In this document: one piece after another, positions 3,403 through 14,980 of the stretch
How the letters are laid out: every line of letters begins with the position of its first letter
Position numbering within the stretch: the first letter of the stretch is position 1
Source of the DNA: a virus
DNA: 25,704 nucleotides
Direction: 5' to 3' (one strand)
Virus record (IMG/VR): IMGVR_UViG_3300043420_000883
Location: 1-25,704 of that record
Program-made: the position numbers and the translations under genes
The notes under the pieces: generated by a model
The model's database searches: none
Seen by the model: only the letters and a program-made list of their open reading frames with translations
Told to the model about the DNA's origin: nothing

Positions 3403-3936
3403 TTACTTAATTAATAATTTCCAAGCGATAGTTACTCTTAAACCAGTAAAACTTCTGGACGGTCCTTCAGCGGCATGTGGAATTATTCCAGGAAATAATA
3501 ATGCCGTATTTGGATTGGGGACGTTAAAATAGAAATTACCATTTCCCAAAGAGAAGATAGTTTTCCCCGCCCAATCTACATTCCAAATATCATTTGCATA
3601 GAAGAGAAATGTTCTTCCGCGCTCATCATGCCAATCTTCATGAAAAGACCCCTTTGTTCCAAAAGTATGTCCATTTGCATAAACATCAAATAGTTCAAAA
3701 GATTGATTTGTCTTTTCTTCTATAATATTTAGAAGATGTTCTGTAAAGAATAGATCATCTTCTAAACCCATGACCCAAAAAGGATAAGATTTTTTATAGT
3801 TTGGATCACTCTCATGATAAGATCCATGACCAAATTTCCACTTTGGTTCATTAATTTTTTCAAGAATTTTTATGTAATCAGAATCGGAAAAGAAACTCTT
3901 ATACTGGATAATATCGCTTTGATTATAAGTCACCAT
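3403..3936 (-). CDS. 2-oxoglutarate/Fe(II)-dependent oxygenase (short form)
   Basis: This 177-aa double-stranded beta-helix oxygenase would couple decarboxylation of 2-oxoglutarate to hydroxylation of a substrate. The facial triad is visible as HED (His99, Asp101) and His154 in the FPGIIPHAAEGPSR stretch. Arg167 in LRVTIAWK is the probable 2-oxoglutarate carboxylate anchor. Between them is a FLFYAND segment followed by WAGKTIF, the spacing usual for phage and bacterial proteins of this family. The substrate is unknown; a protein side chain on a fibre protein is possible from context. The start has one of the few purine-rich leaders in the block (GAGAG ending about 3 nt before ATG). The first 14 nt overlap the end of the preceding oxygenase gene. 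A second candidate ligand pair (His103, Asp104) lies beside the HxD, so exact ligand assignment is not certain. Confidence 0.86.
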   Translation of the reverse strand: MVTYNQSDIIQYKSFFSDSDYIKILEKINEPKWKFGHGSYHESDPNYKKSYPFWVMGLEDDLFFTEHLLNIIEEKTNQSFELFDVYANGHTFGTKGSFHEDWHDERGRTFLFYANDIWNVDWAGKTIFSLGNGNFYFNVPNPNTALLFPGIIPHAAEGPSRSFTGLRVTIAWKLLIK

Positions 3937-4552
3937 ATTCTCTCATTAAATTGATTCTAAATTGTTCAAGTTGCTCAACTATGCTATCGTCTTTTAGCGA
4001 ATTAATATAATTTCCATATTCTATCAGATGATTTCGCATAAATGAATTTTTAACTATTGTCTCCATCCAACATACAAAGACATTTCTTTCTCCAAATTTG
4101 ACTTCATTGACCTTATGCCAAATTCCAGTTGGATATATTACAGCTTTTCCAGGACCTAACTTATATTGTATTTCCCTACTTCCCACTTTTAATACCAACT
4201 CTCCGCCATCATATTCAGAAGGGGAGTTGAGAAAACATGTCATACTATAATGAGCATTTACACCAGCAATAGGATATTCATCTATGTGATAACCATAATG
4301 CATTCCTTTAGTATATTTTAAAAAATATACTTGAGACATTTTTTTGAGAAGATAAACGGAGTATATCTTCTCACGCATAGAGAATTGGCAGTATTTGTTG
4401 AGATTACTGTACTGCCCGTCTGTTTTGTGTATTAAGTTATTTTTTATAGAGGATGAATTGCTTATATTCCCATTAACATATAACTCATTGCTCAATTTAG
4501 AATTAATATATTCAATCTGCTCATTATCAAATAAATCAATCTCAAATATCAT
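3923..4552 (-). CDS. PKHD-type 2OG-Fe(II) hydroxylase (PiuC/prolyl hydroxylase-like)
   Basis: This 209-aa non-haem iron oxygenase resembles the PKHD-type (PiuC/YbiX) and prolyl 4-hydroxylase families. The iron ligands are clear: HxD in YHIDEYP (His89, Asp91) and distal His146 in YPTGIWHKVNEV. Arg156 in FGERNVFVCW binds the 2-oxoglutarate C5 carboxylate. A typical core strand pair is present: SMTCFLN (103-109) followed by YDGGEL (114-119). The C-terminal 45 residues are helical, as in PiuC-like enzymes. Its ATG overlaps the stop of the upstream 302-aa gene by 4 nt (ATGA), indicating translational coupling. It differs from the other two oxygenases beside it, so the three are not recent duplicates. 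Confidence 0.9.
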   Translation of the reverse strand: MIFEIDLFDNEQIEYINSKLSNELYVNGNISNSSSIKNNLIHKTDGQYSNLNKYCQFSMREKIYSVYLLKKMSQVYFLKYTKGMHYGYHIDEYPIAGVNAHYSMTCFLNSPSEYDGGELVLKVGSREIQYKLGPGKAVIYPTGIWHKVNEVKFGERNVFVCWMETIVKNSFMRNHLIEYGNYINSLKDDSIVEQLEQFRINLMREYGDL

Positions 4553-5457
4553 TCTGCTATTTCCGAATCATCTGTATAGTACTTACTCCAATCCACTGGA
4601 ACAATGTCTTCAACTCCCAAGAGTTTCATTATTTCTAGAACTTTAGCATCAACGCGCTTTTTAGATTCTTTGTACATTCCAGACATGTTATAGATTGATT
4701 GTTTTCTGTCATTCATGAAATCTGTAGAGGCTTCTGCGTCATGAGTTACCCATTGATTTTGATCATTTGGATCCATAAATTCTGGGGCTGGGGTGACTCC
4801 ATCTTCTAGAAGTCCATTGGGATATAATTTTCTGTAATTTTTAGGATCAATGGGAATCTTGATATCACATGTCCATTTAAAAAATTCTAATGCTCCATCA
4901 AAATCATCAATTTTTTTCATCATTGATTGTCTTAAATGAGATCTCCATGCAATCCACATGTCTTTCTCGCCAGGATATGTATCCACAACATCAGGAAGAA
5001 CTCTCCAGTCAGACATCTGTAGAAGAGTATTTCTTTCTCTAACTTTTTTCAAATATCTTCTTTCGAAGAAAACAATGTCCTGATCAATCTCATCAATCTT
5101 TTGTTCGATCTTCAACTCTTTAATTTCAGTTAAAGCATCGAAAAATAATTTAATTTTATCACCAAGTTCTAATGCTTGTTCTTTTGAAGCTCCTTTGAAA
5201 TTATAAGTAGTCCAATAGCTAATTTTTTCTACTGCATCATATTTTAGTTTTCTTCGTTGGCAAAAATATTGCCCATTATTCTCTATAGAGAAAAATTCCA
5301 ACTTATCTCTGTCACTGTTCCAAAAAGAATCTATAACGCTAGAGAAAAATTTATCCCTAGTATCATTATCCATTTGGATTCTCAGTTCAGTTTGTGGAAA
5401 AATAATATAATTGTTGAGAAAGTCTGCTTGTAAAATTGTTTCTCTGGTGCTGATCAT
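4549..5457 (-). CDS. Putative tail-fibre assembly chaperone-like protein (302 aa)
   Basis: The central part looks like the phage tail-assembly-chaperone motif: a helix ending RERNTLLQMSDW (139-151), then LPDV (154-157), then WIAWRSHLRQ (168-177). This matches the family pattern of R-x-x-L-L-x-x-(S/T)-D-W, L-P-D, W-x-x-(Y/W)-R-x-x-L-R. A long charged helix, probably coiled coil (about 108-142), precedes it. The N-terminal 100 residues and the C-terminal part (about 180-302, with a DPKNYRKLYPNG segment and an acidic tail) are not recognised. At 302 aa it is longer than simple fibre-assembly chaperones, so it may be a fusion. It sits between two oxygenase genes directly downstream of the fibre genes, which fits a role in folding or trimerising those fibres. 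Function is by motif and context only. Confidence 0.72.
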   Translation of the reverse strand: MISTRETILQADFLNNYIIFPQTELRIQMDNDTRDKFFSSVIDSFWNSDRDKLEFFSIENNGQYFCQRRKLKYDAVEKISYWTTYNFKGASKEQALELGDKIKLFFDALTEIKELKIEQKIDEIDQDIVFFERRYLKKVRERNTLLQMSDWRVLPDVVDTYPGEKDMWIAWRSHLRQSMMKKIDDFDGALEFFKWTCDIKIPIDPKNYRKLYPNGLLEDGVTPAPEFMDPNDQNQWVTHDAEASTDFMNDRKQSIYNMSGMYKESKKRVDAKVLEIMKLLGVEDIVPVDWSKYYTDDSEIAE

Positions 5458-5470
5458 GGGGGGAACTCTT

Positions 5471-6145
5471 CTACTTGGTTTTAATATACCATCCAGTCAA
5501 GATATATTTATCTTGGGTAAAGACTGTACTTCCTTTGTGCGTGTGCGTATATCCCGCTGGCCACATCACAACTGTTCCAGCTGTTGGACGAATTCTTCTT
5601 TTCTGGTAGAGAAATTCTGTCTCTCCATCTCCCTCTGGCATATCATTTAAATAAATCATCCAAGTGACTTCACGCATAGCAAATGACATTAGAGCATTCT
5701 CATAATGCCATAGATGATATCCTCCACCAGGCGGAGTTTTTTGCATCTTTACATCGGTAGAAATTAAACTTGTGTGCTTTAACTGAGGAAATTGCTCAAT
5801 ATAGTGCAAGATGCAAGATTTCAAACAAGAATTTATTTTTGTAGTCAAATCTCTGTTTGAATAATTTAGCAGAAGCGTGTAGTCTTTGCGCGATAACGCA
5901 TCACCATAATAATCTTCTGACCTTTCTATCGTATCTTCACCGATACTGTATGCTGTTTTGTTTTCATATGGAGGAATATATGCTCCATCTCTGTCCATTA
6001 TATCATCAAAGTATTCAATAACTTCATCACATAATGGTCTTGGCACAAAATTTTTCCAAACTCCAATAAAATCATCAAATTCAAATTTGGTGATTTTTTC
6101 ATTTTGCATCAACTCAATTGGTCTATAAAGTCTCGTTGCTGACAT
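5471..6145 (-). CDS. 2OG-Fe(II) oxygenase, prolyl-hydroxylase-like with HxE motif
   Basis: This 224-aa oxygenase is of the prolyl 4-hydroxylase-like group found in marine T4-like phages. The core reads GGYHLWHYEN (141-150), giving His147-x-Glu149 as the probable proximal ligands, a variant of the usual HxD. TWMIYLND (161-168) and GETEF (174-178) follow, then WPAGYTHTH with His201 or His203 as the distal ligand. KYILTGW (213-219) supplies Lys213 in place of arginine as the 2-oxoglutarate anchor. The N-terminal 60 residues begin with a short polar segment and an FDDFIGVW strand. It begins 7 nt after the stop of the 1016-aa fibre gene and probably shares its message. The substrate is unknown; hydroxylation of fibre or baseplate protein is a reasonable guess from position. 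Confidence 0.88.
   Translation of the reverse strand: MSATRLYRPIELMQNEKITKFEFDDFIGVWKNFVPRPLCDEVIEYFDDIMDRDGAYIPPYENKTAYSIGEDTIERSEDYYGDALSRKDYTLLLNYSNRDLTTKINSCLKSCILHYIEQFPQLKHTSLISTDVKMQKTPPGGGYHLWHYENALMSFAMREVTWMIYLNDMPEGDGETEFLYQKRRIRPTAGTVVMWPAGYTHTHKGSTVFTQDKYILTGWYIKTK
5505..5512 (-). promoter_or_regulatory. Possible late-promoter motif (GATAAATA) before the 302-aa gene
   Basis: On the minus strand GATAAATA matches the T4-type late promoter core xATAAATA. It lies inside the end of the preceding oxygenase gene, 48 nt before ATG 5457. In sequence this AT-rich such octamers also occur by chance, so this is a weak call. Confidence 0.25.
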
Positions 6146-6152
6146 AGTATTA

Positions 6153-9100
6153 TCAATATGCTTTTATCAGGTATTTAGTCTTATGAAATGGGATCATAAT
6201 GGGAACTTGCCTTTGTGGAGAAAGAGCAACATCTGGTGTTGGTCTCTTTATACTAGTTAAAACCTTAACTTCTCCCTCTGTCATATCCATAAAAACATCA
6301 GATTGAGTAAAGACAATTTGTAAATTAGAAGCTGCTCCACCAAGTCCAGAACCAACTCCACCACCAATAATACCAGTACCAGAAACATTTCCAGCTGTAT
6401 AATCTGTATTTGGATCATTTACTGGACTTATAGTAATTGCATGACTATGAGTTAAAGTTTGACCACCTGGAACAAGATAAGACTGAACCGTAAATTTTGC
6501 GGGATTTGTATCGATAACAGCAGACATTTCCCTATTAGGATTTCCTGCCTGACCACCAAGAGGTCCATCATCAACAACAATTAATCTGCCATCATTTACA
6601 GGGGCATCCAAAACTTCTGGAGGACTAGTCCACCAAGTCAAGAATTGCAATTCAACTTCTTGAGTTTGTGGTGCTAATTGTGTTGATGGTTGAGGAAGCT
6701 GATCTATAAATCTCTCTTTATTTCTCCATTCTGGATTATAGATTCTAAGTTCTCCCCAGAAATCTGTACCAATGTATTCATCAATAAATTTTTCCCAAAA
6801 TTCGTAATATGTATCTTGATTTACAGTATCTTTACCACCAATTTCGGTATTAAATTTGTCACTAGGGCTTCCACCATAATCCCCAGAAACATCAAATGCA
6901 GCATCTTGAAATCTAAACAGAGCTCTTCCAGTTCCCCATGGCATCAATGGATCCCCATCATCTCCATCAACAACAGCAGATATATAAAAATGGTCATGTG
7001 TTGGAATATTAACTAAAACATCGGTAAGTGGTCCAACTAAACCAGTAACAGAACCAGTAATAGTGAAATTAACTTCCGCTACCATTGTATCTAATCCAGT
7101 CAATCTAACAGTTCCCAGACTAAAAAATTGACTATCTATTCCAGTAGTCCCAGAACCTTCTACCTGCTCTAAAGGTTGAGATCCACTGACATCAACTTTA
7201 TCAAAATACCAATATCCACCTTCAGATCCAACATCATAAATTCCTTTCCCTACTGTAGAAACAGGGAGGAAAGCAGAGTTTCCTCTTGTAGAATCAACAA
7301 ATCCAGTTCCACATAGTCTCCTATTTCTATAATCTGGAAGATTAAAATCTCCATTATAAACTGTATTTTTACCAATAACTATTCCATCGACAATTATATC
7401 CTCAAATGTCTTTGTAACATTTCCACCATATTGATTACCTATTACTTCCCAAAGCGCCCAATATTGAGATCCACTAACGGATCTACCATCACACTCAATA
7501 AATCCAGCATATCTAGATCCAAGATCTCCACCGAGATCACCGTATCCAGAACTAATTGCTTCCTTCAACACAGGAATTACAGTTCCCAATGGATAACCAT
7601 CAAATTTCTCAGTCTTTCTGCTATACCAAACTCCTCTATCAGCTGATGGTGGTGGAGCAGTCGCATAAGTTGTCACCGTCCAGGTAAAAGTTACTGCTGG
7701 AACATTACTTGCTTCTGTTCCAACAACAACTGTTGTGCTAGTAGATGTCAATAAATTAGCAGAAGAGAATAAAACTAAGTAAAATGTACTATTTACAGTT
7801 GGATCAAAAGTTCTAGGTCCGACAACTGGAGTGTCATAATCAATGGAAATTAAAGCTCCATTTGTTGCTGTTATCGTGATAGGTCTGTTTATTCCAGTAA
7901 CCGTTACTGGTGTGCTTGAAATATAATTTGCTGGTACTACATTATTCCTATCATTTGGTCTAATAAAAGTAGCATCATAATCTGGACCAGAACTTGTAGT
8001 TACTTGCCAAGTTGGAATCAATCTTCCACCAACTTTTATCTGAGTTTCTACAGTGCTACTAAAGTCAGCAGAAGATTTTGCATATAAAGTTATAATATCT
8101 CCATTTTGTACTGTAGCTGGGAATACACCAATTGATCCATTATTAATTTTTATTTTTACTTCAGATGATGTAGTAGAAACTAAAGTAACTGGCACAGATG
8201 TTCCAAGTCCTGTCAATCCTCCAGATGGTCTAGGACTAGAAGCAATAAGAGCATCTTCCAATGCATCAACAACATCAGGAAAGAAAAATGAGTCTGGATT
8301 TGTTGATGGATTCAAACCAGTTGTCACACCCCAAGAAGATCCACCAGAAACATCTCCAACAGAAACAGAAACATTGGTGAGTGTATTTGGAGTGGTTGGA
8401 CTTAAAAGTCTTAACTGTAAATACTGTCCATTTGATATAGAAGATGGAGTAGAACTAAATGTCGCTCCAGAAAGAACATCAAATCCATTTTCATCTGTAA
8501 AAGTAGTATTGGTATTTGAAATTGCAAATTCTGCTGCATTATCAAGAGCAACTAATCCATCACTATTCATCCCAGAAACTTGTAAAATATTACTGTAAAT
8601 GTAAGTATTTGTTGGTTGATTAGTTAGATCATCAAAATCTGGAAATGGATCTGGAGCATTTACTGGAATTGGTTTTGTTTGAACTCTCCAAACTTCATTT
8701 GAAGTTCCAATCAAAAGAGTAACTCTTGTTTGTATATTACTAAAGCTTTGGGTCTTTGCCCTTATTTGTAATTTTGCTCCGTTTTCTACAGTAATTCCAG
8801 ATGATGTATTTGGCTGGATCCAGTCAGTATCCCAATTTCCATCACCATTATAATCTATTCTGCAGGCATAAACATCAATACCACCAGAAATATTACAAGA
8901 TAAACCAACAGCAGCTTGAGTAGTTGGCGTCAGTCCAGTAACAGTTGTTATAGTCTCACCAGTTCTTGTGCCATCAGCATAAGTATAAAGAGTATCTAAC
9001 TCAGCATTTAATACTCTCTGGAATGGGTATGGATCTGGGGTAAAGTCTTCTGGAACAGTAGTTATTAGCCAGAACTGTAATAGCTCACCAATTCTTACTG

Positions 9101-9203
9101 TTATAGTTTCTGTATAATCCCAAAATGGAGGTGCTTGGAATCTGAACTGAATATAATCACCCTCAGAAACATATAGCGGTGTATTAGAGTATGAATATGG
9201 CAT
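6153..9203 (-). CDS. Tail-collar-domain fibre protein with tandem beta repeats (1016 aa)
   Basis: This large virion fibre-type protein has three parts. Residues 1 to about 515 hold roughly five beta-rich repeats of 108-127 residues, each ending in a W-x-V-x-T signature (FWLITT 44-49, VWRVQT 171-176, SWGVTT 290-295, TWQVTT 398-403, TWTVTT 507-512). A phage tail-collar domain follows at about 538-632 (GTVIPVL, then AGFIECDGRSV, then GDFNLPDYRNR), as in T4 short tail fibre gp12. The C-terminal 380 residues contain HDH (736-738), HSH (919-921) and a terminal YLIKAY, shared in form with the two smaller collar proteins. A DxNxDGxxDxD calcium-type loop lies at 117-127. No signal peptide. A late-promoter motif lies 29 nt upstream. 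Its expected site is the baseplate or tail fibre, where it would contact the host surface (family inference). Confidence 0.85.
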   Translation of the reverse strand: MPYSYSNTPLYVSEGDYIQFRFQAPPFWDYTETITVRIGELLQFWLITTVPEDFTPDPYPFQRVLNAELDTLYTYADGTRTGETITTVTGLTPTTQAAVGLSCNISGGIDVYACRIDYNGDGNWDTDWIQPNTSSGITVENGAKLQIRAKTQSFSNIQTRVTLLIGTSNEVWRVQTKPIPVNAPDPFPDFDDLTNQPTNTYIYSNILQVSGMNSDGLVALDNAAEFAISNTNTTFTDENGFDVLSGATFSSTPSSISNGQYLQLRLLSPTTPNTLTNVSVSVGDVSGGSSWGVTTGLNPSTNPDSFFFPDVVDALEDALIASSPRPSGGLTGLGTSVPVTLVSTTSSEVKIKINNGSIGVFPATVQNGDIITLYAKSSADFSSTVETQIKVGGRLIPTWQVTTSSGPDYDATFIRPNDRNNVVPANYISSTPVTVTGINRPITITATNGALISIDYDTPVVGPRTFDPTVNSTFYLVLFSSANLLTSTSTTVVVGTEASNVPAVTFTWTVTTYATAPPPSADRGVWYSRKTEKFDGYPLGTVIPVLKEAISSGYGDLGGDLGSRYAGFIECDGRSVSGSQYWALWEVIGNQYGGNVTKTFEDIIVDGIVIGKNTVYNGDFNLPDYRNRRLCGTGFVDSTRGNSAFLPVSTVGKGIYDVGSEGGYWYFDKVDVSGSQPLEQVEGSGTTGIDSQFFSLGTVRLTGLDTMVAEVNFTITGSVTGLVGPLTDVLVNIPTHDHFYISAVVDGDDGDPLMPWGTGRALFRFQDAAFDVSGDYGGSPSDKFNTEIGGKDTVNQDTYYEFWEKFIDEYIGTDFWGELRIYNPEWRNKERFIDQLPQPSTQLAPQTQEVELQFLTWWTSPPEVLDAPVNDGRLIVVDDGPLGGQAGNPNREMSAVIDTNPAKFTVQSYLVPGGQTLTHSHAITISPVNDPNTDYTAGNVSGTGIIGGGVGSGLGGAASNLQIVFTQSDVFMDMTEGEVKVLTSIKRPTPDVALSPQRQVPIMIPFHKTKYLIKAY
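7668..9074 (-). repeat. About five degenerate protein repeats with W-x-V-x-T ends
   Basis: Repeats inside the 1016-aa fibre protein. Spacings between the tryptophan signatures are 127, 119, 108 and 109 residues. Each signature follows a V-x-V/I-G strand (RIGE, LIGT, SVGD, KVGG, VVGT), and the linkers are Pro/Asp-rich. This suggests a chain of similar beta-sandwich domains. The similarity is at protein level only; no long identical DNA is shared. Confidence 0.65.
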
Positions 9204-9231: not shown

Positions 9232-9239
9232 TATTTATT
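9232..9239 (-). promoter_or_regulatory. T4-type late promoter motif (AATAAATA) before the 1016-aa fibre gene
   Basis: On the minus strand AATAAATA fits the T4-like phage late promoter core xATAAATA. It sits in a 43-nt gap, the largest in the structural run, 29 nt before ATG 9203. It would let the 1016-aa gene and the oxygenase block be transcribed late without depending on the upstream fibre genes. Confidence 0.55.
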
Positions 9240-9246
9240 TCTCGGA

Positions 9247-10965
9247 TTACAACTCTCTAAGATTCTTCCAATCATTTTCTCCATTGACATCAACTTGTAT
9301 TGGATGACTTGCTTTGATTTCAACATCAATATCAATTCCATCTACCAGCATTTTTTCTGTCAGAATTTCAGTCTCTGGCGTAAATACTGGATCTTCACTT
9401 TTAAATTTTTCATCCGTTTCTTCTACAAGAATATTATCTGGAGTTCTATCTATTATAATAGGTATAGTAAGAACTTTTGTTATAATTCCACCACTACCAG
9501 TTGCAACTACAACATACTGCACCGATATTGGTCCTCTATTATTATAAGGTATTTCAGTATCGTAAATACCAGATACAGAAGTTATTCCGACTCCAGATTC
9601 AGCAGAATTTGGATGATTTAACTGAACTGTATCTCCAGTAACAAGTTGATCAACTTCATATGTGTAAATTGGAGTTATTGTTAGAGATATATCAGAATAT
9701 GATGTTGTATATGAAATAGATCCTTGGGCACCATATAATAGAGAATCAGATCCACTTATAGTAAGGGTTGGTATCTGATAAACTCGAATCAACAAAGAAT
9801 CACTATCAGTTCCACCAAGTCCAGATACTGTTGCTGTGTATGTTGTTGATTGTGTTGGACACACTGTAGCAGAGCTTGTTAAATTTCTATTATTAATGTC
9901 TGGTGAAAAAGTTATAGTATCAGCGTCTCCAGTAGTATACCAATTAAGTGTGGCGCATTCGCCAGCAATTAGAGGATTTTTACTTGCAGATAAAACAACT
10001 TCTGGTGGTATATAAACAGTAATTGTAGCTGTTTTAACATCAGAAGTATTCCCAAGTCCAACTATAGAAAGTGTGTAGGTTGTAGTTTCATCTGGAGTTA
10101 CAACACGTTGCCCATTCACTGGAACAGATCCAACACCCTGATTTATACTTGCAGATGTTGCATTTGTAGTGCTCCATGACAAAGTAGAACTCTGTCCTCT
10201 AATGATGGCGGTTGGATTTGCAGTAAAAGAGTTAATACTTGCACTAACCAAAGTATAATCAACATCAATATATCCATCACCAAATTGATTTGTTCCTGAA
10301 CCAGTGAAAATTACATACCCAGAATCATATGAACTAGCGCCACCAGCGCCGCCACCAGAAGCATATCTACCAGCACGGTCATCTGCTCCTTCTCTACCAC
10401 CACCGCCACCAGGGCATCCACCACCGCCGCCGCCACCTCCGCCGCCATCAAAACCTTGCGATGCTCCAGTTCCACCACCAGAAATACTAGATAAGTTTCC
10501 AGTTTCAAATCCCAACCCAAAACCACCAGTACCACCACGAAGATAAGAGTCTGGATAACTTGCTCCACCTCCACCTCCACCCCCAGCGGCTATAATAATA
10601 TATCCATTTTTTAGAGAATCGTATATTGCACTTGCACCTCCGCCACCAGCACCACCTCCAGAACACCCCTGTGGTCCAGTTCTACCTCCACCGCCGCCTG
10701 ATGCTACGCTAGATGATCCACCAGACCCAGCACCACTATTTGAAACACATCCAAATCCATCACCACCTTTTTTACCTATTCTTAGTGTTAATGTTCTTGG
10801 TGTAAATGAGGGGAGAATAAACGTTCCCCATCTTCCACCACCACCAGATCCTCCTGGATTTCCATCATCTCCACCTCTTCCTCCAGAACCAGCAGCAACA
10901 AATAAAGTTATATTTGTTGCGTTTGCTGGTATATTTACAGTAGTATCGCTAGTATATCTTGCCAT
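9247..10965 (-). CDS. Adhesin-like protein: glycine-rich head, Ig-like domains, conserved C-terminus (572 aa)
   Basis: Third member in transcription order of a three-gene paralogous family. Residues 1 to about 235 are glycine-rich with runs up to ten Gly (174-183), interrupted by short hydrophobic strands (TLTLRIGKKG, GYIIIAAGG). This resembles the polyglycine-rich domains of phage receptor-binding proteins. Two Ig-like domains follow (about 240-322 and 323-398), then a third beta domain (about 399-505, starting at SLLYGAQGSISY), then the 65-residue C-terminal module (508-572). Ig domain 2 has a Cys pair (Cys337, Cys369); Ig domain 1 has Ser259 and Val289 at those places. No signal peptide or transmembrane helix is seen. 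Its ATG overlaps the previous gene's TAA by one base (TAATG). The probable role is host-surface recognition by the virion, with the C-terminus as anchor (inference). Confidence 0.75.
   Translation of the reverse strand: MARYTSDTTVNIPANATNITLFVAAGSGGRGGDDGNPGGSGGGGRWGTFILPSFTPRTLTLRIGKKGGDGFGCVSNSGAGSGGSSSVASGGGGGRTGPQGCSGGGAGGGGASAIYDSLKNGYIIIAAGGGGGGGASYPDSYLRGGTGGFGLGFETGNLSSISGGGTGASQGFDGGGGGGGGGGCPGGGGGREGADDRAGRYASGGGAGGASSYDSGYVIFTGSGTNQFGDGYIDVDYTLVSASINSFTANPTAIIRGQSSTLSWSTTNATSASINQGVGSVPVNGQRVVTPDETTTYTLSIVGLGNTSDVKTATITVYIPPEVVLSASKNPLIAGECATLNWYTTGDADTITFSPDINNRNLTSSATVCPTQSTTYTATVSGLGGTDSDSLLIRVYQIPTLTISGSDSLLYGAQGSISYTTSYSDISLTITPIYTYEVDQLVTGDTVQLNHPNSAESGVGITSVSGIYDTEIPYNNRGPISVQYVVVATGSGGIITKVLTIPIIIDRTPDNILVEETDEKFKSEDPVFTPETEILTEKMLVDGIDIDVEIKASHPIQVDVNGENDWKNLREL
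9250..9444 (-). repeat. Shared 65-residue C-terminal module, copy in the 572-aa protein
   Basis: The core KSEDPVFTPETEI is followed by a VDGIDI strand, HPIQVDVNGENDWKN and LREL. It is nearly the same as the modules at 10968-11162 and 12379-12573. Conservation is much higher than in the heads, as expected for an assembly or attachment surface. Confidence 0.85.
9380..9406. repeat. 27-bp identical DNA block, copy 1
   Basis: Exact match to 12509-12535. Both copies encode part of the KSEDPVFTP core in the C-terminal modules of the 572- and 571-aa adhesins. The intervening 469-aa gene differs at several third positions in the same place. Confidence 0.8.
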
Positions 10966-12374
10966 TATAGTTGCCTAATATTTTTCCAATCATTCTGATT
11001 GTTTATATCTACTTGAATAGGATAATTTGATTTTATCTCAACTGGAATATCAATTCCATCAACTATCATCATATCTGTAATTATTTCCGTTTCTGGCGTA
11101 AATACTGGATCCTCGCTCTTGTATTTTTCATCTGTCTCTGGGACTATTAAATTATCTGGTGTTTCGTCGATAATAATTTCAGTAGTTTTATTTACAGTTA
11201 TTTGACCACCTTTTCCAGTTACAACAAAAACATAATCAACAAATCTGGGTCCAAAATCATCATAAACTATATCTGTATTTAACGAACCAGACCTAACTGT
11301 TGCAGAAGATGGAGCAGACAATTGAGTTGATGTTGCTGCTGGAAGATCATATTGATAACCAACCACACTTCCAAAATTATTTCTAAAGTTTGCGGTAAAA
11401 GATATAGAAATATCAGCATATTGTGATGTATATTCAATAATACCTTGTTGTCCATACAGCAATGTTTCTGGAACAGTAATAGAAGCTGTTGGTATTTGAT
11501 TTACTGTTATTGTGGTGCTGTCAATATCTTGCCCACCCAGTCCAGAAACTCTTGCGGTATAAGTTGTAGTATCTGTTGGACACACAGTTGAACTACTAGT
11601 CAAATTTCCATTAGGAACGTTCCCAGATAACCAAGTTATAGTACTAGCATCTCCAGTAGTATACCATGATAATGTAGAGCATTGCCCTGCTGTAATTTCG
11701 GATGGGTTTGCTGACATTACAATGTTTGGTGGAATATAAACAACAAGTGTAGTACATGCAATTGCATTTCCGCCTTCAGCACTAACACTTATGCAATACT
11801 GTGCATCATCAGTTGGGCATACAGTTTTAGATCCACTAAAGCTAGTATTTCCTTGCCCAGTTACATTTGCAGAATAAAGATATGATCCACTAGATGACCA
11901 AGATAAAGTAGCACACTGCCCTTGAATAATCGATGATGGACTTACAGATATGCTAGCAGAAGGTGCTGGTGGTTGAGAAGGACCATCAAGCGTCCATGCA
12001 ACAGCACATGGATTGCTATTAAAATCAACACCGTTTGGTGGAGCTGGAGAATTGCCAATACTCCACTGCATCACGATTGTCTGACCTTTACTAAAAAACT
12101 TACTAGTAGTATTTCCTCCACTGCTGTATCCACCAACACTTACAGTGTTTCCACCCATGTTGCCAGATCCAAAATCATCGGCAGCAATTCTAAATGTATA
12201 TGTACCACTCCATGGTGCAGTAATGCTCCACTGACCAGAAAAAGTAATGCCACCCATCCCAGAAGTAGCACCAGTGTTGAGAGGTGTTGCAGCATAAGAA
12301 TTCATGAATCCACTCCAATTTCCATTGGACCATGCGTTATATCCTATTGATCTGCTATTTGCGTACTGTGGCAT
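10965..12374 (-). CDS. Adhesin-like protein: beta-sandwich head, Ig-like domains, conserved C-terminus (469 aa)
   Basis: Middle member of the three-gene family. The head (1 to about 137) is not glycine-rich. It is a compact predicted beta-sandwich with WSGTYTFRIAADDFGSGN at about 55-72 and a Trp-containing last strand AVAWTLDG, which recalls PA14-type or lectin-like carbohydrate-binding folds (weak resemblance). Two Ig-like domains follow (about 139-217 and 218-295) with Cys pairs Cys154/Cys186 and Cys232/Cys265, and Ig domain 1 has two further Cys (194, 207). A third beta domain (about 296-403) and the 65-residue C-terminal module (405-469) match those of the flanking genes. The stop is followed by one base and then the preceding gene's start region, so the cluster is probably co-translated. 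Likely a virion adhesin with its own receptor specificity. Confidence 0.72.
   Translation of the reverse strand: MPQYANSRSIGYNAWSNGNWSGFMNSYAATPLNTGATSGMGGITFSGQWSITAPWSGTYTFRIAADDFGSGNMGGNTVSVGGYSSGGNTTSKFFSKGQTIVMQWSIGNSPAPPNGVDFNSNPCAVAWTLDGPSQPPAPSASISVSPSSIIQGQCATLSWSSSGSYLYSANVTGQGNTSFSGSKTVCPTDDAQYCISVSAEGGNAIACTTLVVYIPPNIVMSANPSEITAGQCSTLSWYTTGDASTITWLSGNVPNGNLTSSSTVCPTDTTTYTARVSGLGGQDIDSTTITVNQIPTASITVPETLLYGQQGIIEYTSQYADISISFTANFRNNFGSVVGYQYDLPAATSTQLSAPSSATVRSGSLNTDIVYDDFGPRFVDYVFVVTGKGGQITVNKTTEIIIDETPDNLIVPETDEKYKSEDPVFTPETEIITDMMIVDGIDIPVEIKSNYPIQVDINNQNDWKNIRQL
10968..11162 (-). repeat. Shared 65-residue C-terminal module, copy in the 469-aa protein
   Basis: The core KSEDPVFTPETEI is followed by VDGIDIPVEIKSN and YPIQVDINNQNDWKN, ending IRQL. 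It aligns without gaps to the copies at 9250-9444 and 12379-12573. Confidence 0.85.
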
Positions 12375-12375
12375 T

Positions 12376-14091
12376 TTAGATTTGTCTTACATTTTTCCAG
12401 ACTTGTTCCCCATTTATATCTACTTGAATGGGATAGTTTGATTTGACTTCAATTGGAATATCTACACCATCAACTAACATCATTTCTGTCACAATTTCTG
12501 TTTGTGGTGTAAATACTGGATCTTCACTTTTAAATCTTCCGTCAGTTTCTTCAACTATTAAATTATCTGGATTTTGATCTATAACAATAGTTGTCGTATA
12601 AGTTTTTGTCACTTGACCACCACTTCCAGTTGCAACCAATACATATTGGACAGAGAAAGGACCCTGTTCATTATAAGGAATATCTGTTGGTAAAGCATTA
12701 TTAGAAATTACCGTATTCGGACCTCCATATTCTGCGCTAGATGCAACTGGAGTGATATTAACAACATTTCCAGTAGAAACAAAAAACTCACCAGTTTCAT
12801 TGTTTCTATATGTATATAATGGAGTAATAGTTATAGAAACATTTGCATATTGTGTGTCATATGATAAAAATCCTTGCTGTCCATACAACAAACTATCAGG
12901 AGCAGAAAATTCAGCTGTTGGTGGTTGATAAACAGTAACAGTAACTGATGCTGGAGGAGAACTTCCACCAAGACCAGAAGCAACAGCAGTATATGTTGTA
13001 GTAACAGATGGACAAACAGTAGAACTACTTGTCAATAAAGTATTTGAAATTCCACCAGATGTCCAAGTTAGTGTGCTTGCATCTCCAGTTGTGTTCCAAG
13101 ATACATCAACACATTCACCAGATATTATAACAGTTTTTGTTACATTTACGGTGACAGTTGGTATTATATACATGAACAACTGAATATATCCCTGACTACC
13201 AGATGTGGCAGTGTTTCCTCCAGCACCGCCACCACCGCCAACAGTGGCGGTGTAAGTTGCTCCAGGAGAATATCCAGCATTAATCAACTGACTTCTGGAT
13301 AAAGTAACTTCTATAGCACCACCAGATCCCCCACCAATTCCTTGTGCGCCTCCTTTAATTCCAGTTGCAATAACTGTAAAACATCTAATATATCCATTAG
13401 CTCCAGCATTATTTTGAAACCATATATTTACTCCACCATTGTATTTGTTAGCAGATCCATTTAAACTATAGGGTGAAGCAGTAGCGCCGCCTGCTGCTTG
13501 TTGGCATATTCCAGTAACTTCTAGTGTCCAAGAGTTATTAATAAATGGAATAACAAATCTCACACTATAATATTTTCCGTTCGATGGAGTAGTACCATAA
13601 ATTCCATCAGGAGCATTTTTATTTTCATAATTAATTACGATATCACTGCTGAAATTCTGAAGTATATGTTCGTTAGTATCATTGTTAAAAACATGAATAG
13701 AAGAAGAAGTATATGTAGCGAATCCAGGCGTCCCATTACCAGCCGCGCCAAATACCGATCCACCAAGATTTCTTCCAGCTCCTCCAGTTGATAAAGCACC
13801 ATTGTTTCCAGATAGTGCAGTAAATCCAGTAAATGCTCCAGTATTTGTACCGCCACCACCGCCAAGAGAGTTTTTACCACCAGAAACACCACCGCCTTGA
13901 CCACCAGCAGCTGTCATACCCAACCATGTAGTATTACCACCACTGCCGCCATCAGTACTACCTATGGTAGATTGTGGTACAAATTCACCACCTCCACCAC
14001 CTCCCCACATGCGAACTCGCATAGAATAAACTTTCTCTGGTATTTGGTAGTCTTCGTTTCCAACAGTAGAAAAGTTTTTTGATACTGGCAT
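12376..14091 (-). CDS. Adhesin-like protein: interrupted glycine-rich head, one Ig-like domain, conserved C-terminus (571 aa)
   Basis: First member in transcription order of the three-gene family. The head (about 24-305) is glycine-rich in two parts (24-124 and 244-300, the latter with SPGATYTATVGGGGGAGG). A roughly 120-residue segment without glycine runs lies between them (about 125-243, including SVRFVIPFINNSWTLEVTG). Only one Cys-paired Ig-like domain is present (about 313-391, Cys327 and Cys360), so it has one Ig unit fewer than its two relatives. The third beta domain (about 392-505, starting at SLLYGQQGFLSY) and the C-terminal module (507-571) are conserved. It abuts its neighbours within one base and has no Shine-Dalgarno sequence. 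Probable receptor-binding virion protein; the head type matches phage polyglycine adhesins only in general character. Confidence 0.75.
   Translation of the reverse strand: MPVSKNFSTVGNEDYQIPEKVYSMRVRMWGGGGGGEFVPQSTIGSTDGGSGGNTTWLGMTAAGGQGGGVSGGKNSLGGGGGTNTGAFTGFTALSGNNGALSTGGAGRNLGGSVFGAAGNGTPGFATYTSSSIHVFNNDTNEHILQNFSSDIVINYENKNAPDGIYGTTPSNGKYYSVRFVIPFINNSWTLEVTGICQQAAGGATASPYSLNGSANKYNGGVNIWFQNNAGANGYIRCFTVIATGIKGGAQGIGGGSGGAIEVTLSRSQLINAGYSPGATYTATVGGGGGAGGNTATSGSQGYIQLFMYIIPTVTVNVTKTVIISGECVDVSWNTTGDASTLTWTSGGISNTLLTSSSTVCPSVTTTYTAVASGLGGSSPPASVTVTVYQPPTAEFSAPDSLLYGQQGFLSYDTQYANVSITITPLYTYRNNETGEFFVSTGNVVNITPVASSAEYGGPNTVISNNALPTDIPYNEQGPFSVQYVLVATGSGGQVTKTYTTTIVIDQNPDNLIVEETDGRFKSEDPVFTPQTEIVTEMMLVDGVDIPIEVKSNYPIQVDINGEQVWKNVRQI
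12379..12573 (-). repeat. Shared 65-residue C-terminal module, copy in the 571-aa protein
   Basis: The core KSEDPVFTPQTEI is followed by VDGVDIPIEVKSN and YPIQVDINGEQVWKN, ending VRQI. It contains a 27-bp DNA stretch (12509-12535) identical to 9380-9406 in the 572-aa gene. Confidence 0.85.
12509..12535. repeat. 27-bp identical DNA block, copy 2
   Basis: Exact match to 9380-9406, about 3.1 kb away in the same orientation. It is long enough to seed recombination that would delete the middle gene or exchange head domains (inference). Confidence 0.8.
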
Positions 14092-14092
14092 T

Positions 14093-14980
14093 TTAAAACT
14101 TTATTAGATATTCTACAAGAATAAATGGTGTAACTAATTGATCTAATTTTTCTTCGTCCGAAACATCTACAGTTACACTTGCAGAAACTCCAGTCATATC
14201 AATTTGAACCTGTCCATGTCTATATGTAAAATCATGAGAGTAAGAAGCTGGTCTAATAATATCATGTTTATGAATTGATTCTCTACCACCTTCAGCAGTT
14301 GTATCCAATGAATTGTAGGCGCCACTATTCGCATTTAAAGCACCACTATTTTTTCCTCCATCCGAACCAATTTCGTGATTTCCAGTGTAATTGAGATAAT
14401 TCTGGTTTGATCTATGAGCATGTCCCTGAAAATTTTCAATATTTAAAGCTGTTTCAGTCGTACTTCTAGGAATGATATATTTTGGATTCCCAAGAAATGG
14501 TAACTCACCACTAGCAAAAAGTGTTGCGTTTCCTAGATATGAAGATGTTATAGTGTTTCCAAAATTACTAATTACTTGAATTTGAGGTCCAACTCTGTTT
14601 ATTGGAGTTGCTTGAACTACATCAGTATCAACAAAATCATTGTTGTACGTTCCAGTTCCCCTTCCACCAAGAACTACTTTAGACCCCAAATCTGGCAATT
14701 GAAATTGTCCAAGATCTCCAAGTAATGGATCAGCATCTCTTAAATTTACATTTTCTCTCTTAAACCTAGATTCCTCTCCAACACCAAGTACCTGAGAAAG
14801 AGCAACATAATCCTTTGCATTAAGAACAGAACCATCACACTTTAAATAACCAGCTGGAAGATTTTCTCTAAAAACGGCTGTAGTTGGATCATTATTAAAT
14901 CCAATCCCAGGAGTAGAATGGATAATAATGGACCCAGTGCATCCACCATATCTAGATTTTTCTCTTGCGTAATTTGCCAT
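14093..14980 (-). CDS. Tail-collar-domain fibre protein (295 aa)
   Basis: A phage tail-collar (gp12-type) domain lies at about 36-105: LPAGYLKCDGSVLNAKDY (41-58) with the usual G-x-x-x-C-D-G turn, then FQLPDLGSKVVLGG. The C-terminal half carries two HxH motifs, HAH (187-189) and HKH (237-239), further His at 249 and 255, and ends FILVEYLIKF. In T4 long and short tail fibres such HxH motifs in trimeric tips bind metal ions (established for T4 gp37), so this may be a short trimeric fibre with a metal-stabilised tip. It is half the length of T4 gp12 and lacks an obvious long shaft. It lies 12 nt after the 415-aa collar gene and 1 nt before the first adhesin gene. Confidence 0.85.
   Translation of the reverse strand: MANYAREKSRYGGCTGSIIIHSTPGIGFNNDPTTAVFRENLPAGYLKCDGSVLNAKDYVALSQVLGVGEESRFKRENVNLRDADPLLGDLGQFQLPDLGSKVVLGGRGTGTYNNDFVDTDVVQATPINRVGPQIQVISNFGNTITSSYLGNATLFASGELPFLGNPKYIIPRSTTETALNIENFQGHAHRSNQNYLNYTGNHEIGSDGGKNSGALNANSGAYNSLDTTAEGGRESIHKHDIIRPASYSHDFTYRHGQVQIDMTGVSASVTVDVSDEEKLDQLVTPFILVEYLIKF

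Follow-up and report, generated by a model that had tools for sequence, protein, structure and literature searches.

Three adhesin-like genes in tandem, whose products join different heads to one common C-terminal part, raise the question of which end of these proteins faces the host and which is held by the virion. The genes, p1 to p3, occupy positions 9247 to 14091 on the minus strand of a 25,704-nucleotide viral DNA, IMG/VR record IMGVR_UViG_3300043420_000883; the window, as used below, means this whole stretch, which is the fibre-gene region of a T4-like cyanophage (Kyanoviridae). For several T4 tail-fibre genes, g34, g35, and g37 among them, a review notes no obvious homologues in cyanomyoviruses (PMC2984593), so that their host-recognition proteins are an open question. 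The analysis described here makes it likely that the products of this cassette are adhesins with N-terminal heads, immunoglobulin (Ig)-like arms, and a genome-specific C-terminal tail acting as the anchor, and that their heads are renewed by recombination.

The open reading frames (ORFs) on the minus strand were, in the order of transcription, p3 (571 amino acids, 12376..14091, head type C), p2 (469 amino acids, 10965..12374, head type A), and p1 (572 amino acids, 9247..10965, head type D). An earlier note, written from the letters of the window, had placed three intact genes abutting within 1 nt exactly here, and the ORF coordinates agree: p3 and p2 are separated by 1 nt, while p2 and p1 share 1 nt. 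Over the length of the protein, p1 and p2 matched the profile phrog_2155 (E 8e-171 and 2e-112, respectively) and p3 matched phrog_9770 (E 5e-139). Switching of the genes by phase variation was considered and set aside, as all three are intact and on one strand and no inverted arrangement was seen among relatives.

Pairwise alignment revealed a common C-terminal part of approximately 265 residues in p1, p2, and p3, with 51-53% identity and E about 1e-84 to 1e-100. This similarity is far beyond chance, and the shared part recurs in 49 phage records. It is composed of one or more Cys-paired Ig-like units, followed by an Ig-like domain that starts near SLLYG and by a stretch of approximately 65 residues that aligns without gaps in all three proteins. 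The gap-free end had been described in the earlier note and was reproduced; the shared part is indeed common to the three proteins and is larger than was described there. The same note had distinguished a beta domain at SLLYG from the Cys-paired Ig-like units. Both elements are present; in the AlphaFold models the SLLYG domain also has an Ig-like fold, and the separate tail is confined to the last 67 or so residues.

AlphaFold prediction with alignments of relatives gave mean predicted local distance difference test (pLDDT) scores of 89.6 for p2 and 87.1 for p1, with confident heads and three confident Ig-like domains. In p2, the head comprises residues 1-135 (11970..12374, pLDDT approximately 90), the three-domain stalk residues 136-402 (11169..11969, VIA-align Z approximately 10 against Ig strings), and the tail residues 403-469 (10968..11168). 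In p1, the head comprises residues 1-237 (10255..10965), the stalk, also of three Ig-like domains according to the model and structure comparison, residues 238-504 (9454..10254), and the tail residues 505-572 (9250..9453). The boundaries in p3 were drawn by alignment to p1 and p2 and by tail comparison, and place the head at approximately residues 1-304 (13180..14091), the Ig-like stalk at approximately 305-504 (12580..13179), and the tail in the last 67 or so residues (12379..12579). The tails of p1 and p2 were predicted with nearly no secondary structure (pLDDT 39-59 and 45-78, respectively), though the tail is the most conserved part among the paralogues. A segment that is conserved and yet unfolded alone would be expected to serve in docking or assembly. 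As a modelled monomer the tail does not fold, and it seems to need a partner for folding.

We then compared the tails within and between genomes. Paralogous tails of the same genome shared 66.6% identity, whereas the value was 50.8 ± 0.7% after permuting genome labels within head type (maximum 53.2 in 500 permutations). In the same test the Ig-like half gave 40.6 within genomes versus 34.2 permuted, and in 48 of 50 genomes the tails of paralogues resembled each other more closely than the Ig halves did. A tail that tracks its genome would suit an anchor adapted to a lineage-specific partner. The 1016-amino-acid short-tail-fibre/collar-domain protein encoded next to p1 (GC740, phrog_4924, 6153..9203, minus strand) was found at ≥80% coverage in 49 records, as many as have the cassette, whereas the 295-amino-acid tail collar protein reached 55; the co-occurrence of GC740 and the cassette was judged by counts and part of the record lists. 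In partial Mantel tests with the collar and gp12 distances removed, tail distance correlated with that of the 1016-amino-acid protein (r 0.36, p 0.001), and r dropped to 0.28 (0.14-0.45) with length-matched columns. No extra correlation of tail distance was observed with the collar protein, gp12, or the tail assembly chaperone GC741 (partial r 0.07 for the last). GC740 is the best candidate for the docking partner of the tail, as a lead only.

The heads behaved differently. Clustering yielded 23 head types in 53 non-redundant loci, a number that is approximate and depends on the coverage threshold. Besides the C, A, D order of the window, the orders ACD, ACB, CBD, BAF, IAB, and BEC were seen. 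On a tree of the C-terminal module, head type required at least 32 changes, compared with a least possible number of 6 and a shuffled mean of 65.6, indicating that head and C-terminus are partly linked and have been repeatedly separated. Heads up to 85% identical were found on C-termini only 37% identical. For p2 of the window, the nearest head (L079.2; 75% head, 51% C-terminal identity) and the nearest C-terminus (L020.2; 64% C-terminal, 50% head identity) came from different loci. A C-terminus shared by diverse heads in related phages, which the earlier note had named as support for a head-swapping cassette, was thus seen many times over.

Near-isogenic phage pairs directly show, at the DNA level, that heads are swapped on a retained C-terminus; the clear events are few, namely two. 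Around the cassette, two S-RIM44 isolates share 97.6-99% identity, yet the product of the middle gene has 486 amino acids and a type A head in one isolate, and 884 amino acids and a different head in the other. DNA identity returns 86 codons ahead of the stop of this gene. The exchanged segment may exceed one head, as the first gene of the pair is diverged as well (85%). In the ACG-2014j/S-CAM4 group, two ACG-2014j isolates with flanks approximately 94% identical carry a gene 2 of 1861 and 582 amino acids, respectively, and the difference runs from 5 nt past the start codon to 68 codons before the stop. In looser cases identity returned 70 and 36 codons before the stop. These natural pairs bear out the proposal of a head-swapping cassette. 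The cassette region of S-PM2 was identical to that of its passaged derivative S-PM2d and was uninformative. The S-PM2d coevolution study reports selected mutations in the neighbouring genes S-PM2d218, 219, 220, and 224; genes 221-223, which are the cassette, are not named in its main text (PMC9910659).

In phage Sf-FR1 (L105:5182-16173), which is without this module, the slot holds two related heads, one type-A-like (E 7e-10) and one D-like (E 6e-41), joined to a C-terminus of another kind that both share; the heads are thus portable across anchors. A D-like glycine-rich domain is also inserted in an 1853-amino-acid fibre protein of Sf-FR1.

Structure comparison with VIA-align indicated that the head of p1 has a TNF-like/glycine-rich fold. 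It matched the ALK/LTK glycine-rich domain in 12 entries with Z 12.9-15.6 (best match, 185 residues aligned at 3.3 Å) and a Bxb1 tail-tip chain with Z 10.7. By sequence, the type D head profile matched ALK (E 1e-4), and the Pfam family Gly_rich_2 was matched. The fibre protein gp24 of cyanophage Pam3 has a TNF-like/glycine-rich fold that is proposed to recognise the host receptor and has been likened to C. elegans ALK, and its glycine-rich domain to gp38 of Salmonella phage S16 (PMC9608196). Pam3 and S16 entries were not among the structure matches listed for the p1 head, and the link to these proteins runs via ALK (PMC9608196). In Pam3 gp24 this fold is C-terminal and docking is by the N-terminus (PMC9608196), whereas in the p1 model the glycine-rich domain is N-terminal, has no N-terminal helical domain before it, and is followed by Ig-like domains and the C-terminal tail.

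The head of p2 was modelled as a confident beta-sandwich that is probably PA14-like. The earlier suggestion of a PA14-like head draws indirect support from relatives, since PF07691 (PA14) scored 26.6 bits (cut-off 24) in a related ACG-2014e unit and an S-RIM44 homologue is named "PA14 domain-containing"; p2 itself had no Pfam PA14 match above the cut-off. In whole-model structure searches of p2 the listed matches were taken up by Ig domains, and the head fold was not identified in this way, and single-head sequence searches against the PDB gave nothing useful. The head of p3 is of an interrupted glycine-rich type. The three heads had been called unrelated, which is firm for p2 against the others; the heads of p1 and p3 are each rich in glycine and, close to their N-termini, weakly similar by profile comparison (27 columns, probability 49%). 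Type B heads of other loci (e.g., L003:11416-13119) have a conserved DxSGSM motif reminiscent of a vWA MIDAS, an idea that no family or PDB match supports.

Reversed polarity, with a variable N-terminus and a conserved C-terminus, was proposed in the earlier note and is well supported, as the tails follow the genome, the heads do not, and a known receptor-recognition fold is N-terminal in p1. In the reading that we favour, each protein would present its head at the free end, with the Ig-like string as an arm, and would be anchored by its tail of approximately 65 residues at a virion site that is common and lineage-specific; the tail-fibre or baseplate complex is the likeliest place for this site. 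The heads would be recognition modules that bind host surface structures, namely a TNF-like/glycine-rich domain (p1), a beta-sandwich that is likely PA14-like (p2), and an interrupted glycine-rich domain (p3). New heads would enter by recombination with one end close to the start of the gene and the other within the tail region or shortly ahead of it, which preserves the resident anchor. Such a cassette is a strong candidate for host recognition and comes with natural experiments, the S-RIM44 and ACG-2014j isolates being one head apart between near-identical flanks. A short conserved C-terminal tail carrying many unrelated heads would be a putative docking tag, and changing the head with the tail kept may be how these viruses alter what they stick to.

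Some observations weigh against this reading. Identity at 4-fold sites was only modestly raised in paralogous tails (56% vs 49%), so the likeness of the tails could stem in part from gene conversion instead of co-adaptation with a partner. Gene conversion accounts for part of the tail likeness in some genomes (e.g., L010, L011, and L025), not clearly in the window. In PHROG the families of the cassette are called "virion structural protein" and belong to the category "head and packaging", which may be a naming artefact in view of the neighbouring genes. Finally, 199 of the 234 modules read in the loci terminate their ORF, and 32 are internal to longer ORFs in which two or three whole units are fused in frame. 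A module in mid-chain means that a free C-terminus is not always needed or that the chains are cut.

The copy number of the module bears on an arrangement that is compatible with C-terminal anchoring, in which the tails of three different-headed proteins assemble as a heterotrimer or in a shared socket. Among 54 complete cassettes, a count that includes near-identical contigs, 42 have exactly three modules, nine have two, two have one, and one has six. Several loci carry three whole units per ORF and others two, and a GGNS motif recurs in the short linkers between the units; the apparent need of the tail for a partner would also suit such a complex. The cassettes with one or two modules speak against it, and three units may simply be ancestral. 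We regard the complex as possible but doubtful. If it exists, one fibre would present three different recognition heads, and related phages would have welded the trio into a single polypeptide. Three complete head-stalk-tail units in one ORF of 1551-1691 amino acids were seen at L042:704-5359, L030:6380-11044, L056:4205-8869, and L086:3779-8854. At the junctions of fused ORFs, the end of the tail (RQI) is retained ahead of the linker, in which GGNS is frequent. The largest cassette seen, with six tandem units, is that of S-CAM3 (L017:8001-18089); in the S-CAM3 isolate KU686198, the sixth gene is annotated as short (909 nt) despite a module match downstream.

The tail might instead be an assembly signal that binds a chaperone (e.g., GC741), or a cleaved or trimerising chaperone segment, and be absent from or unused in the mature particle. 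A tail that is conserved and unfolded alone, a tail assembly chaperone gene nearby, and fusions in which the module stays mid-chain in the manner of a cleavage unit are all consistent with this idea. We nevertheless consider it rather unlikely, because no Pfam match to a peptidase S74-like or other known chaperone domain was found in the tail, and because GC741 also occurs in relatives without the cassette and, as described above, showed no extra correlation with the tail.

In T-even phages, the host-recognition segments of gp37/gp38 are exchanged by recombination between conserved flanks, and the variable tip is C-terminal; in the cassette, by contrast, it is the head, at the N-terminus, that varies, and the constant 3' end encodes the presumed anchor. 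The nearest precedent for the polarity is T4 Hoc, which has a conserved C-terminal virion-binding part and a variable N-terminal string of Ig-like domains (PMC10385173). Both this polarity and the Ig-string architecture are shared with the cassette proteins, Hoc proteins were among the Foldseek viral matches, and the PHROG category points the same way. The proteins could accordingly be decorations of the phage head, the tail binding the capsid and the Ig strings projecting from it; they would then help particles to adhere weakly to cells or surfaces and would not serve in receptor recognition by the phage tail. However, the C-terminus of Hoc is unrelated in sequence to the cassette tail, which is largely without secondary structure, and the cassette has 1-6 paralogues per genome, non-Ig heads, and a place in a tail-fibre gene block. 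The cassette always lies among tail-collar, gp12-like, and tail-chaperone genes and co-occurs with the 1016-amino-acid fibre protein, which makes a capsid location distinctly improbable.

Most phage fibres are anchored by the N-terminus, which would favour the C-terminal module as a common receptor-binding tip, with different N-terminal domains docked at different virion sites. Even with Ig-like domains able to bind cell surfaces, this is very improbable, since it is the N-terminal domains that vary and are swapped, the tail follows the genome and is unfolded alone, and the fold of the N-terminal head of p1 is used elsewhere for receptor recognition (PMC9608196).

All 49 phage records with the module are cyanophages or marine relatives. 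In IMG/VR, the module was found in 304 stretches, of which 79 loci were retained; the collections searched may omit some relatives of the window. In five complete phage genomes the full module was confined to this cassette. The window proteins are, by sequence, members of GC737/738/739 (S-PM2 p223-225 and Syn1_035-037; phrog_2155, phrog_9770, and phrog_29022), which are homologous and have the same slot and order. Records annotate these only as virion structural or hypothetical proteins, and among open papers none was found that describes the head swapping, conserved tail, or polarity of the cassette. The p3 and p2 heads of a 15.2-kb contig, IMGVR_UViG_3300047562_003013 (L009 and L023), are 100% identical to those of the window, and the contig is probably from the same virus population.

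The gene order of the window was matched in S-PM2, Syn1, ACG-2014j, and S-CAM4. On the minus strand, transcription passes through genes for a 3147-amino-acid fibre protein, a 415-amino-acid gp12-like protein, and the 295-amino-acid tail collar protein (GC736, 14093..14980, phrog_4714, E 4e-129), which forms the upstream border of the slot, and then through p3, p2, and p1, the 1016-amino-acid short-tail-fibre protein, a 2OG-Fe(II) oxygenase, and the tail assembly chaperone. In reference cyanophages and many IMG/VR contigs the cassette likewise sits between GC736 and GC740. ATAAATA, the core of the T4-type late promoter, is absent inside p1-p3 and occurs at 9232-9238, past these genes and ahead of that for the 1016-amino-acid protein; this is weak evidence, as the window has fewer copies of the motif than chance would give. 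At 3923-6145, the tail assembly chaperone gene is flanked by two 2OG-Fe(II) oxygenase genes, an arrangement that is kept in related cyanophages.

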